From Alphaproteobacteria bacterium (GTDB lineage: Bacteria > Pseudomonadota > Alphaproteobacteria > UBA8366 > Aestuariispiraceae), in the NCBI GenBank assembly GCA_029212835.1, contig JARGPE010000009.1, positions 1 through 33,820 of the forward strand: a stretch of 33,820 nt of DNA. The letters are read 5' to 3'. Shown here piece by piece: positions 15,770 through 18,437 of this stretch (position 1 is its first letter; each line of letters begins with the position of its first letter). The translations under genes were made by a program, and so were the position numbers. The notes under the pieces were generated by a model. It ran no database searches and was not told the DNA's origin. It saw nothing but the letters and a program-made list of their open reading frames with translations.

Positions 15770-16720
15770 TTAGCCCCGATTTTGATCCGTTTTATCTACT
15801 GCAGTCCCCGGTGGTTCTGAACCTTCGGGGTCTGTTGGCATGTCCCTGTGAAAGCGGTAGGCCGGTCGTCCTTGCTTTGTCAGCCAGTCTGCAAGCTGTT
15901 CTGCCATATAGACAGACCGATGTTTGCCCCCCGTGCAGCCAAATGCAATCGTTAGATAACTTTTTCCTTCGGCTTCTTGGCGTGGCAGCACCCGGGTCAG
16001 CAAGGTTTGCAGGTCTTTTTGAAAGCCTGCGCTATCTGGGTCTGCTTCAATTGCGGCCCCAACTCTGGGGTCCAGGCCAGTCAGGTCCCGCAAGGTAGGG
16101 TCATAATGCGGGTTTTTCAGAAACCGCACATCCAGGACCATATCGGCCTCTCTGGGGACGCCTCGGCGGAACGAAAAGGACATGACTGTGATTGCTGCCC
16201 CGACAGGAGTTCCATTGGCAAAAAGTGACGTCATCCGTTGTTTGAAGTCCCAAACCGTCAGCCCGGTGGAGTCAATCATCATATCAGCATGAGACGCCAA
16301 AGGCAGGATCGCCTCACGCTCCATACGAATACCATCGGCGACGGGACGGTCGGCAGCCAGGGGGTGGCGACGACGAGTTTCAGTAAACCGGCGCAGCAAT
16401 TCATCGTCACTGCAATCCAGGAAAAGGGTCGTTACCTTCAGCCCCTCGGCCAGTTTTAACGTATCAATTTCTGCCAGCAGACTGGCAATGCCGAAATCCC
16501 GGTTGCGGATATCAACGCCAATCGCGACCGGCGACGCGCTGGGGTTTTCGCGGATCGACTGCGCCAGACGTGGCAAGAGGCTGAGTGGGAGATTATCAAC
16601 CGCATCAAATCCCAAATCCTCCAGCACCGCCAAGGCGGTTGACCGGCCCGCTCCGGACATACCAGTCACCAGAACTAGGTCTGCCGGTGCGGTGGACTTT
16701 GGAGGGGGGGTGTCGGTCAT
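15770..16720 (-). CDS. rapZ: RapZ/YvcJ-family nucleotide-binding RNase adapter
   Basis: A 316-residue protein, slightly longer than the usual 280-290 because of a Pro/Ser-rich N terminus and C-terminal tail. The Walker A motif GMSGAGRST spans residues 20-28, followed by LEDLGFDAVDNLPLSLLP; DIRNRDF is conserved; and the C-terminal domain has TIAFGCTGGKHRSVYMAEQL at about 262-281. In E. coli RapZ binds sRNAs and RNase E and senses glucosamine-6-phosphate; in Bacillus YvcJ binds nucleotides. Alphaproteobacterial targets are largely unknown. Its ATG overlaps the hprK stop by 4 bases. Co-occurrence with PTS genes is conserved across proteobacteria. Confidence 0.95.
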   Translation of the reverse strand: MTDTPPPKSTAPADLVLVTGMSGAGRSTALAVLEDLGFDAVDNLPLSLLPRLAQSIRENPSASPVAIGVDIRNRDFGIASLLAEIDTLKLAEGLKVTTLFLDCSDDELLRRFTETRRRHPLAADRPVADGIRMEREAILPLASHADMMIDSTGLTVWDFKQRMTSLFANGTPVGAAITVMSFSFRRGVPREADMVLDVRFLKNPHYDPTLRDLTGLDPRVGAAIEADPDSAGFQKDLQTLLTRVLPRQEAEGKSYLTIAFGCTGGKHRSVYMAEQLADWLTKQGRPAYRFHRDMPTDPEGSEPPGTAVDKTDQNRG

Positions 16721-17193
16721 GCCGGCTCTCCAAATCCCTGCAACAGGGCAAGTTTAAGCTTGATCGGTGCAGAGGATTCAAAAGGGGCAATTGTCAGGCA
16801 AGGGAGTGTGATCCCTTCCAGTGTTTCCTGCGAACAATCCGGAAGCCGATCTATCGGCCCCTGTGTCAGATCTGCCAGCAGTTCCACCGCGACCTTGGTG
16901 CGGTAGGGCAGGGTCATTATGCCAACCCCCCGAACCTCAATGCGTCCCTGTAATTGTTCCGGCGCCTGGGCGTACAGGGTTCCGGCATCAACGGTCAGGG
17001 TGGTTTGGTCATCGGCAACCAGCTCCGCCCCTGCATCAATCATGCGCAGGGCCAAATCCGACTTGCCCGCGCCGGATACGCCGCGCAGCAGAATGCCCCG
17101 TCCATCGATGGCGATTGTTGTACCGTGCACCAGTGCCATTGCCCCTATCACTCCCATACCAAATAGCGTGCGGTGCAGCGTAACGCCTGTCAA
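16717..17193 (-). CDS. hprK: HPr kinase/phosphorylase, short alphaproteobacterial form
   Basis: A 158-residue protein that contains only the catalytic C-terminal domain of HPrK (the Firmicute enzyme is about 310 residues). The Walker A GVSGAGKSD lies at 38-46, ELVADDQT follows, and the family signature RIEVRGVGIM is at about 84-93. It phosphorylates and dephosphorylates HPr on Ser46. The N-terminal residues MTGVTLHRTLFGMGVIGAM before VHGT may be a start-site artefact: relatives begin near VHG, and an internal ATG (MGVIG or MALVHG) could be used. It overlaps rapZ by 4 bases and follows the cupin gene by 37. Confidence 0.93.
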   Translation of the reverse strand: MTGVTLHRTLFGMGVIGAMALVHGTTIAIDGRGILLRGVSGAGKSDLALRMIDAGAELVADDQTTLTVDAGTLYAQAPEQLQGRIEVRGVGIMTLPYRTKVAVELLADLTQGPIDRLPDCSQETLEGITLPCLTIAPFESSAPIKLKLALLQGFGEPA

Positions 17194-17230: not shown

Positions 17231-17545
17231 TTAAATTGATCCGGAGCGTTCTGCCACCAGAATTCGACAGGTAGTTAAGGGTTCGGCCTTGTGGGAATCC
17301 CCTGCTTCACAATGCACGATGTCGCCCGGTGTCATTAATAGGCTGTCTTCTCGACCGTCTGGATGGCGGAAATGCATGCGCAGTGATCCGTCCAATAGCA
17401 CGAAAACCTCCGGTCCGTCATTAATGTGCCAAATATAGGACTTGTCGGTCCAATGCAGGCGGATGGTTGCTGTATCAATTGTTTCAATGTCCAGCGCATC
17501 CCATGCACGCGTGCCGGTAAAGTCTTTTGGCTTAATATGTCGCAT
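17231..17545 (-). CDS. Small single-domain cupin protein
   Basis: A 104-residue cupin. Motif 1 is WHINDGPEVFVLLDGSLRM, with the His and Glu ligands and the closing Gly. Motif 2 is MTPGDIVHCEAGDSHKAEP, with PGD and the terminal His. A single metal-binding beta barrel is expected; substrate and function are unknown, and such proteins range from enzymes to ligand sensors. It precedes hprK by 37 bases on the same strand, where many alphaproteobacteria carry the chvG/chvI two-component genes. Immediately upstream is the structured, terminator-bearing region at 17608-17720, which may control it. Confidence 0.85.
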   Translation of the reverse strand: MRHIKPKDFTGTRAWDALDIETIDTATIRLHWTDKSYIWHINDGPEVFVLLDGSLRMHFRHPDGREDSLLMTPGDIVHCEAGDSHKAEPLTTCRILVAERSGSI

Positions 17546-17607
17546 GAGGGTTCCCGAATTCGTTCAAGAAGATCGAATGGATAACGGATACCCATAAAGG
17601 ATGCCAT

Positions 17608-17720
17608 AAAAAACGACGGCCGCCGATGGGGGGGTATCGACGGCCGTCTATCGCGGTTGCAACGATCTGTTGGAGATCGTCCCGGGGCAGTTTGGGGGCG
17701 CCCCGGTGAGAGGGGAGGTC
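17608..17720 (-). ncRNA. Candidate small RNA or attenuator leader with three hairpins
   Basis: The minus strand, read from about 17720, starts with a C/U-rich single-stranded segment (ACCTCCCCTCTC) complementary to Shine-Dalgarno sequences. It then forms three consecutive hairpins: 17706-17682 (7-bp CCGGGGC/GCCCCGG stem, loop GCCCCCAAACT), 17680-17662 (7-bp ACGATCT/AGATCGT stem, 5-base loop) and 17648-17615 (8+2-bp GC-rich stem with a C7-containing loop), ending in T6 at 17613-17608. A possible promoter lies just upstream. The length would be about 112 nt. It matches no family I can name. Two readings: a trans-acting, Hfq-type sRNA with C-rich loops, or a leader whose terminator governs the cupin-hprK operon 63 bases downstream. 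Confidence 0.6.
17615..17648 (-). terminator. Rho-independent terminator with T6 tract
   Basis: GACGGCCG (17615-17622) pairs with CGGCCGTC (17641-17648), and two further pairs form past one mismatch. On the minus strand the stem is followed directly by GTTTTTT. It ends either the LysE transcript (stop 145 bases upstream) or the candidate small RNA, and it stands in front of the cupin gene. Confidence 0.85.
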
Positions 17721-17725
17721 TCAGC

Positions 17726-17754
17726 AGTATAGATATTGGGTGTGTACCAGGGAA
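17726..17754 (-). promoter_or_regulatory. Possible promoter of the small RNA/leader
   Basis: On the minus strand TATACT (17731-17726) is a good -10, with TTCCCT (17754-17749) at a 17-base spacing as a poor -35. This predicts initiation near 17719-17720, at the start of the C/U-rich segment. The weak -35 leaves this tentative; an alternative sigma factor or an activator could be involved. Confidence 0.35.
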
Positions 17755-17792
17755 TTGAAGAGGTTCAAATAAGGCATTTTCGGGGCAATTGC

Positions 17793-18437
17793 TCACCGTT
17801 GCGTGATCGCCAGATTGATGCCCAATCCTATCAGAATGGACCCGCCAGCCCAGCGGGTGATGCGCATTGTATGGCGGCCCTTGCGCAACCCTGCCATCAC
17901 CGCATTTGTCAGAAAAACAGCTGCCACATCGGCAAAGGTCACAGCCAGGTTCACAATGACACCCAGCACCAGCATCTGCATCCAGATCGGGAAGCTGGCT
18001 GTCGGGTCGGCGAACTGCGGAAGAAAGGCAACGAAGAACATTGCCGTCTTTGGATTGAGCATTTCTACTGTCATGCTTTGGATAAAGGCGGAACGGCCTT
18101 GCTTGCGCGGTTTAATGCTCGCGGCTGCCTGTGTGGTATCTTCTGTGATCAGGCGTGTTCTGATGATCGATATGCCCATATAAACCAGATACAAAGCCCC
18201 AATAATTTTCAGAACCATGTAGAGCGTGGGCACCAGGGCAAGCAGGGCGGAAAGTCCTAAGGCGGCGGCTGCGACATGAACAAGCCCGCCAACCTGTAGG
18301 CCAAGGGCAGCCATAAAGCCGCCCCGTCGCCCATGCGCCAGAGTCTGCGCCGCCGTGTAAAGCAGCGCCGGGCCTGGGATAAGAGCAAAAATCACGGTTG
18401 CAGCCAAAAATGGCAGAAGCAAATCCCAATTTGGCAT
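17793..18437 (-). CDS. LysE/RhtB-family amino-acid exporter
   Basis: A 214-residue inner-membrane protein of typical LysE/RhtB length with about six hydrophobic segments. The N terminus LLLPFLAATVIFALIPGPALLYTAAQTLAHGRRGGFMAALG contains the family hallmark PGP followed by G-RxG. IIGALYLVYMGISIIRTR and NPKTAMFFVAFLPQF are also characteristic. It exports amino acids or their derivatives by proton-coupled efflux; the substrate cannot be told. It is divergent from the PadR gene; the T6 terminator 145 bases after its stop may end its transcript. Confidence 0.92.
   Translation of the reverse strand: MPNWDLLLPFLAATVIFALIPGPALLYTAAQTLAHGRRGGFMAALGLQVGGLVHVAAAALGLSALLALVPTLYMVLKIIGALYLVYMGISIIRTRLITEDTTQAAASIKPRKQGRSAFIQSMTVEMLNPKTAMFFVAFLPQFADPTASFPIWMQMLVLGVIVNLAVTFADVAAVFLTNAVMAGLRKGRHTMRITRWAGGSILIGLGINLAITQR

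Follow-up and report, generated by a model that had tools for sequence, protein, structure and literature searches.

Structured RNA gene downstream of lysE

The window, that is, the whole stretch of 33,820 nucleotides analyzed here, contains a gene for a small structured RNA that shares a strand with lysE, lies about 68 nt beyond it, and is followed by the cupin-hprK genes. The elements of the RNA locus are listed below.

17762-17786, minus strand: putative ChvI box GCC-CCGAAAAT-GCC-TTATTTGA-ACC, three half-sites with 11-bp spacing (weight matrix)
17730-17735, minus strand: -10-like hexamer TATCTA, read from the sequence
17608-17725, minus strand: sRNA gene of ~118 nt, predicted 5' end accurate to a few bases (covariance model match, fold, covariation)
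17707-17723, minus strand: hairpin 1, predicted anti-Shine-Dalgarno element; stem UGAGA (U17723-A17719), loop CCUCCCC (17718-17712), UCUCA (U17711-A17707); the stem covaries
17682-17706, minus strand: hairpin 2, 8-bp stem, loop CCCCCAAAC; compensatory changes at six of six modelled pairs in the 54-sequence alignment
17661-17681, minus strand: hairpin 3, 8-bp stem, loop CCAAC; compensatory changes at six of six modelled pairs
between hairpins 3 and 4, minus strand: 12-nt linker (predicted fold)
17608-17648, minus strand: hairpin 4, the intrinsic terminator; 13-bp stem 17648-17615, loop ACCCCCCC, U6 tail 17613-17608 (terminator scan); compensatory changes at 12 of 12 modelled pairs

The minus-strand RNA from 17725 to 17608 is predicted to fold into four separate hairpins with an energy of -54.1 kcal/mol, compared with a mean of -34.0 for shuffled sequences (z = -6.07; none of 200 shuffles was as good). 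The original prediction described three hairpins within 17608-17720. This interval cuts off the 5' end of the RNA, which starts near 17725, and since it began inside hairpin 1, that hairpin was missed. The anti-Shine-Dalgarno-like C/U segment reported on the minus strand is indeed there, as the 7-nt loop of the extra 5' hairpin, and the terminator with its run of six T was recovered. Two hairpins were rightly placed side by side (17706-17682 and 17681-17661), their predicted stems being of 8 rather than 7 bp. The C-rich loops (CCCCCAAAC and ACCCCCCC) are also present, but the most conserved element is the loop of hairpin 1 and not the C-runs noted earlier. Finally, the promoter box at 17786-17762, overlooked earlier, belongs to the feature.

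An open reading frame overlying the RNA (17335-17796, minus strand) is considered spurious, because covariation of the RNA argues against coding. The product of the window hprK gene (16717-17193, minus strand) is a short form of 158 amino acids, to which the full-length HPr(Ser) kinase model matches only in part.

Conservation and covariation of the RNA family

A DNA search of 99 genomes, including the window's own genome and its relatives, gave matches in 22. Scanning one genome per species for an exact 18-mer that contains the loop of hairpin 1 produced 37 stretches, mostly from Rhodospirillales-type alphaproteobacteria, with Pacificispira spongiicola, Marivibrio halodurans, Hwanghaeella grinnelliae, Aestuariispira insulae, and many MAGs among the carriers. 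Judged by its match to a P. spongiicola contig, the window belongs to the genus Pacificispira. Loci L026, L031, L032, and L055, with no similar fold after the 18-mer, and the duplicate L057 were left out before the family set was assembled, and 36 sequences selected by the exact 18-mer formed the first covariance model. The match in the window covers 17607-17726 with an E-value of 4e-17, the window sequence itself being one of the 36 model sequences. Among 44 genomes that represent the order, 42 have a covariance model match, including all 22 high-quality ones; all 18 genera are covered, and the match is nearly always single in a genome. In a class-wide sample of 385 genomes, the first model matches 28 genomes at E ≤ 0.001. 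A broader model, built from 53 rows of which three are weak opposite-strand matches, matches 62 at E ≤ 0.01, some share of the weakest being due to chance.

The absence of compensatory base changes in relatives had been named as grounds for rejecting the RNA; double changes were found at 27 of 30 base pairs in an alignment of 54 distinct sequences. In this alignment 96.5% of cells form standard pairs, as against 82.2% after shuffling, and pairing falls to 31-50% if the structure is slid by one to three columns. A narrower set of 46 sequences gives 97.0% paired cells and double changes at 24 of 30 pairs. Both alignments were fitted to the structure and are hence biased in its favor; in a structure-free MAFFT alignment double changes occur at 14 of 23 predicted pairs. 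These comparisons indicate that the hairpin structure is under selection. All 36 sequences in the first alignment have the same CCUCCCC loop in hairpin 1, but this is so by construction, because the 18-mer used to select them contains the loop. Among members found later by the model, the stem of hairpin 1 varies (from UGAGA to CGGAGA or CUAGA forms), and the loop is mostly CCUCCCC, with forms such as CUUCCCC, CAUCCCC, UAUCCCC, and UCUCCCC in some members (for instance, L112, L148, and L149).

The RNA thus described is a real, conserved, structured family, previously uncatalogued and absent from Rfam 15. As originally proposed, no known family fits: a scan with all 4227 Rfam 15 families gave nothing in the window at the gathering score, and the only gathering-score hit in 35 related loci is a separate TPP riboswitch, not the RNA itself. 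The best permissive hit, 6C RNA (RF01066), an actinobacterial family, resembles the window RNA in its hairpins, whose loops hold about six C. We rejected it, as it scores 28.1 bits against a gathering score of 47 (E = 0.098) and its first stem is matched poorly. Alphaproteobacterial CcsR, or 'cuckoo', RNAs are stress-induced and carry a conserved CCUCCUCCC motif (the Rfam name); their motif and fold differ from those of the window RNA, and CcsR1 (RF02791), whose gathering score is 65.3, reaches only 11.8 bits. The rhizobial sRNAs of the alpha-r14/NfeR1 type are structured and trans-acting. They resemble the window RNA in their exposed anti-Shine-Dalgarno motifs but gave no gathering-threshold match in the window or in the 35 loci.

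Several unusual loci were observed in the course of these searches. Two tandem copies of the RNA (556-715 and 797-957) lie on the minus strand of locus L147 (G010:C176:6700-8200), where a TPP riboswitch (82.5 bits, 414-522) occupies the same strand as both copies. A distant member of the class has two copies about 280 bp apart upstream of ccmA (L136, G224:C1:318120-318523). The CP051228.1 entry (L053), titled 'Mesoflavibacter sp. isolate ih5', contains an alphaproteobacterial RNA locus with LysE, cupin, HprK, and RapZ genes, and its label looks wrong.

Genomic context and the promoter box

The neighbors of the RNA change between genera. The cupin-hprK genes follow it only in Pacificispira, and even there, in P. 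spongiicola (L025), hprK lies 1.9 kb downstream with other genes between; lysE likewise adjoins it in this genus only. In most other genera the RNA is located just upstream of ccmA-ccmB on the same strand. The latter are heme-exporter genes of cytochrome c maturation, as example proteins exceed the NCBIfam cut-offs. Nearly all distant class members tested with E-values below about 1e-6 have ccmA-ccmB directly downstream. Among weak class matches, L123-L139, L141, and L143 are followed by ccmA, and L140, L142, L144, and L145 are not, so that synteny separates the likely true matches from the likely false ones. A literature search found no published sRNAs adjoining ccmA.

A 25-bp box, GCC-N8-GCC-N8-RSC, precedes the RNA. 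In the window it starts 6 nt past the LysE stop codon and occupies positions from about -61 to -37 relative to the inferred RNA start. Its score is 31.2 and that of the next best site in the whole window is 10.5. Of the 54 listed members, all but one have a second GCC that starts 47-51 nt away from the 5' end of the RNA. Further, a degenerate box pattern with one mismatch allowed matches 13 of 14 genomes in one to three places each, the reversed pattern giving a single match overall. More distant members often have TCA or ATC in place of the first GCC. A scan for sigma-70 consensus promoters found none, and no -35 element is recognizable at the RNA, as would be expected of an activator-dependent promoter. 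An RpoH-type promoter (CCCAATAT near -10) was seen by eye in some members only and is therefore not general, and the R. sphaeroides CenR motif TGA-N8-TGA does not fit the box.

The RNA could be a 5' leader or attenuator, its transcript starting at the box and its regulated terminator making the downstream genes, ccmAB in most relatives or cupin-hprK, respond to a signal. Its position shortly upstream of ccmA-ccmB on the same strand in most relatives and its intrinsic terminator agree with this explanation, but the genes downstream vary between genera, and the predicted fold of four separate hairpins offers no obvious alternative antiterminator. Further, in at least three genera the RNA and its box are retained apart from ccmA, which itself lacks a box: in Pacificispira, Aestuariispira (G009, L058), and Marivibrio-type genomes (G007/L043, L030). 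The distance from the RNA to ccmA is 835 kb in G002, 860 kb in G004, about 126 kb in G007, and 4.5 kb in G009. As the box stays with the RNA when ccmA is elsewhere, it belongs to the RNA, and retention of the RNA itself in these genomes favors a function in trans. We thus regard a leader as quite unlikely. The more specific suggestion that it regulates cupin-hprK fails, since this neighborhood is confined to the window's genus and is replaced elsewhere by ccmA-ccmB or by neither; the place of the RNA beside cupin-hprK appears to be incidental.

The short distance from lysE on the same strand would also agree with a terminator region of the lysE mRNA that happens to have C-rich loops, or with an RNA derived from the lysE 3' UTR and lacking its own promoter. 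However, lysE is a neighbor in one genus only, and the RNA with its box is conserved far beyond it, which makes this origin highly improbable. The conserved box and terminator amid changing neighbors instead point, at the level of sequence, to an independent transcription unit, which makes a free sRNA far more probable than a leader. The original proposal of a free sRNA acting in trans to mask ribosome binding sites is supported by the strong covariation, order-wide conservation, own promoter element, terminator, and lack of an Rfam match.

Putative ChvI control and mode of action

ChvG/ChvI is a widespread alphaproteobacterial system of envelope stress and host interaction, and the ChvG sensor domain PF13756 was found in all 40 genomes searched. 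Half-sites spaced by 11 bp are typical of OmpR-family regulators. The phased GCC repeats of the box agree with the Sinorhizobium meliloti ChvI consensus, N-GCC-N8-GCC (PMC9731502). We located the chvI-chvG loci via PF13756 and scanned them with a weight matrix trained only on the RNA promoters, a regular-expression scan of the chvG loci for the box having given nothing useful. In 21 of 27 loci, the best site on either strand preceded chvI on the sense strand, at a distance of 20-200 bp from its start; the other six failed. The 27 loci come from related genomes and are not independent samples, the chvI starts follow simple open-frame rules without curation, and the range was chosen after a first view of the hit positions. 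With the same range imposed, 300 column-permuted matrices yielded 1.3 loci on average and five at most, and the reversed matrix yielded five. For the genome from which the window comes, the highest-scoring site of a 5.5-kb stretch (L172:1486) is 144 bp upstream of the response regulator gene that precedes chvG. A box before chvI in most loci is what autoregulation by ChvI would predict. There is thus good evidence, from the sequence comparison, that the box is a putative ChvI site, and ChvI control of the RNA appears well supported in silico.

A similarly built sRNA might instead be driven by a different regulator, either of the OmpR type or unrelated, with a binding site before chvI as well. 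The replacement of the first half-site by TCA or ATC in distant members leaves room for such a factor, which would then control chvI as well, and the motif proposed for ChvI of Caulobacter crescentus is a different one, TTGC-N3-GCAA, for which validation was called for (PMC9731502). The fit of the phased repeats to the S. meliloti consensus and the presence of the box upstream of chvI itself speak against it, and we consider another regulator unlikely.

We suggest that the RNA is probably a free-standing, trans-acting sRNA, activated by ChvI, that masks Shine-Dalgarno sequences by means of its CCUCCCC loop. Upon envelope stress, activated ChvG would give phosphorylated ChvI, which would bind the GCC repeats, phased at 11 bp, immediately before the -35 region and recruit polymerase to the promoter with the -10-like TATCTA. 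The resulting RNA of ~118 nt would end at its own terminator, and its exposed CCUCCCC loop would pair with target mRNAs at Shine-Dalgarno sequences of the GGGGAGG type and block their translation in trans; hairpins 2 and 4 might also pair through their C-rich loops. Masking of Shine-Dalgarno sequences would be a plausible mode of action. A search of nine genomes with the pattern AGGGGAGG-N4-10-ATG produced far more hits than the reversed pattern used as control, which is normal for a Shine-Dalgarno sequence, and these hits are mostly not shared between genomes. Eighty such regions from seven genomes contain 55 open frames of at least 80 amino acids, among which recurrent groups, recognized by eye and BLAST, are a branched-chain amino-acid permease (G000, G002), ABC permeases (G002, G006, G009), and a leuD-like gene (G006, G009). 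The Shine-Dalgarno-complement search found no conserved target set, and mRNAs with AGGGGAGG before AUG are diverse. Hfq was found in all 13 relatives searched but not in the window's own, incomplete genome.

ChvR of C. crescentus (CCNA_R0100), an 84-nt RNA with several stem-loops and its own promoter under ChvI-ChvG control, pairs partly just upstream of the chvT start codon and is independent of Hfq (PMC6237742). Compared by its description, it is a probable functional analogue of the window RNA, both being small stem-loop RNAs with their own promoters, of which that of the window RNA is putatively under ChvI. ChvR, located upstream of recF/gyrB and with one target, was reported to be specific to C. 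crescentus (PMC6237742), whereas the window RNA is order-wide and has other neighbors. Thus if the box is a ChvI site, the family would give ChvG/ChvI, whose described sRNA arm is reported as species-specific, a general post-transcriptional arm. The family lends itself to testing, as its predicted seed is short and defined (CCUCCCC), its box gives a DNA motif to work with, and hosts from Pacificispira, Hwanghaeella, Aestuariispira, and Marivibrio are in culture.

MicA and RybB are sigma-E sRNAs that serve the envelope stress response of γ-proteobacteria. It is possible, though doubtful, that the RNA represents an envelope-stress sRNA that is ancient and spread across the class Alphaproteobacteria, is associated with ccmAB and wired to ChvI, and plays a MicA/RybB-like role, with CCNA_R0088 perhaps as an orthologue. 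ChIP-seq of ChvI in C. crescentus has CCNA_R0088 among its highlighted sites (PMC9731502, legend to Figure 3); it is apparently a non-coding RNA locus and a candidate lead for homology with the family.

Further box matches point to possible additional genes with a ChvI box. One is a short distance before a gene for a 101-aa protein with a membrane-like segment (L166, G006:C1:1904128-1904152), and the other shortly precedes a gene for a 294-aa protein with a signal-like N-terminus (L170, G006:C1:3858154-3858178).
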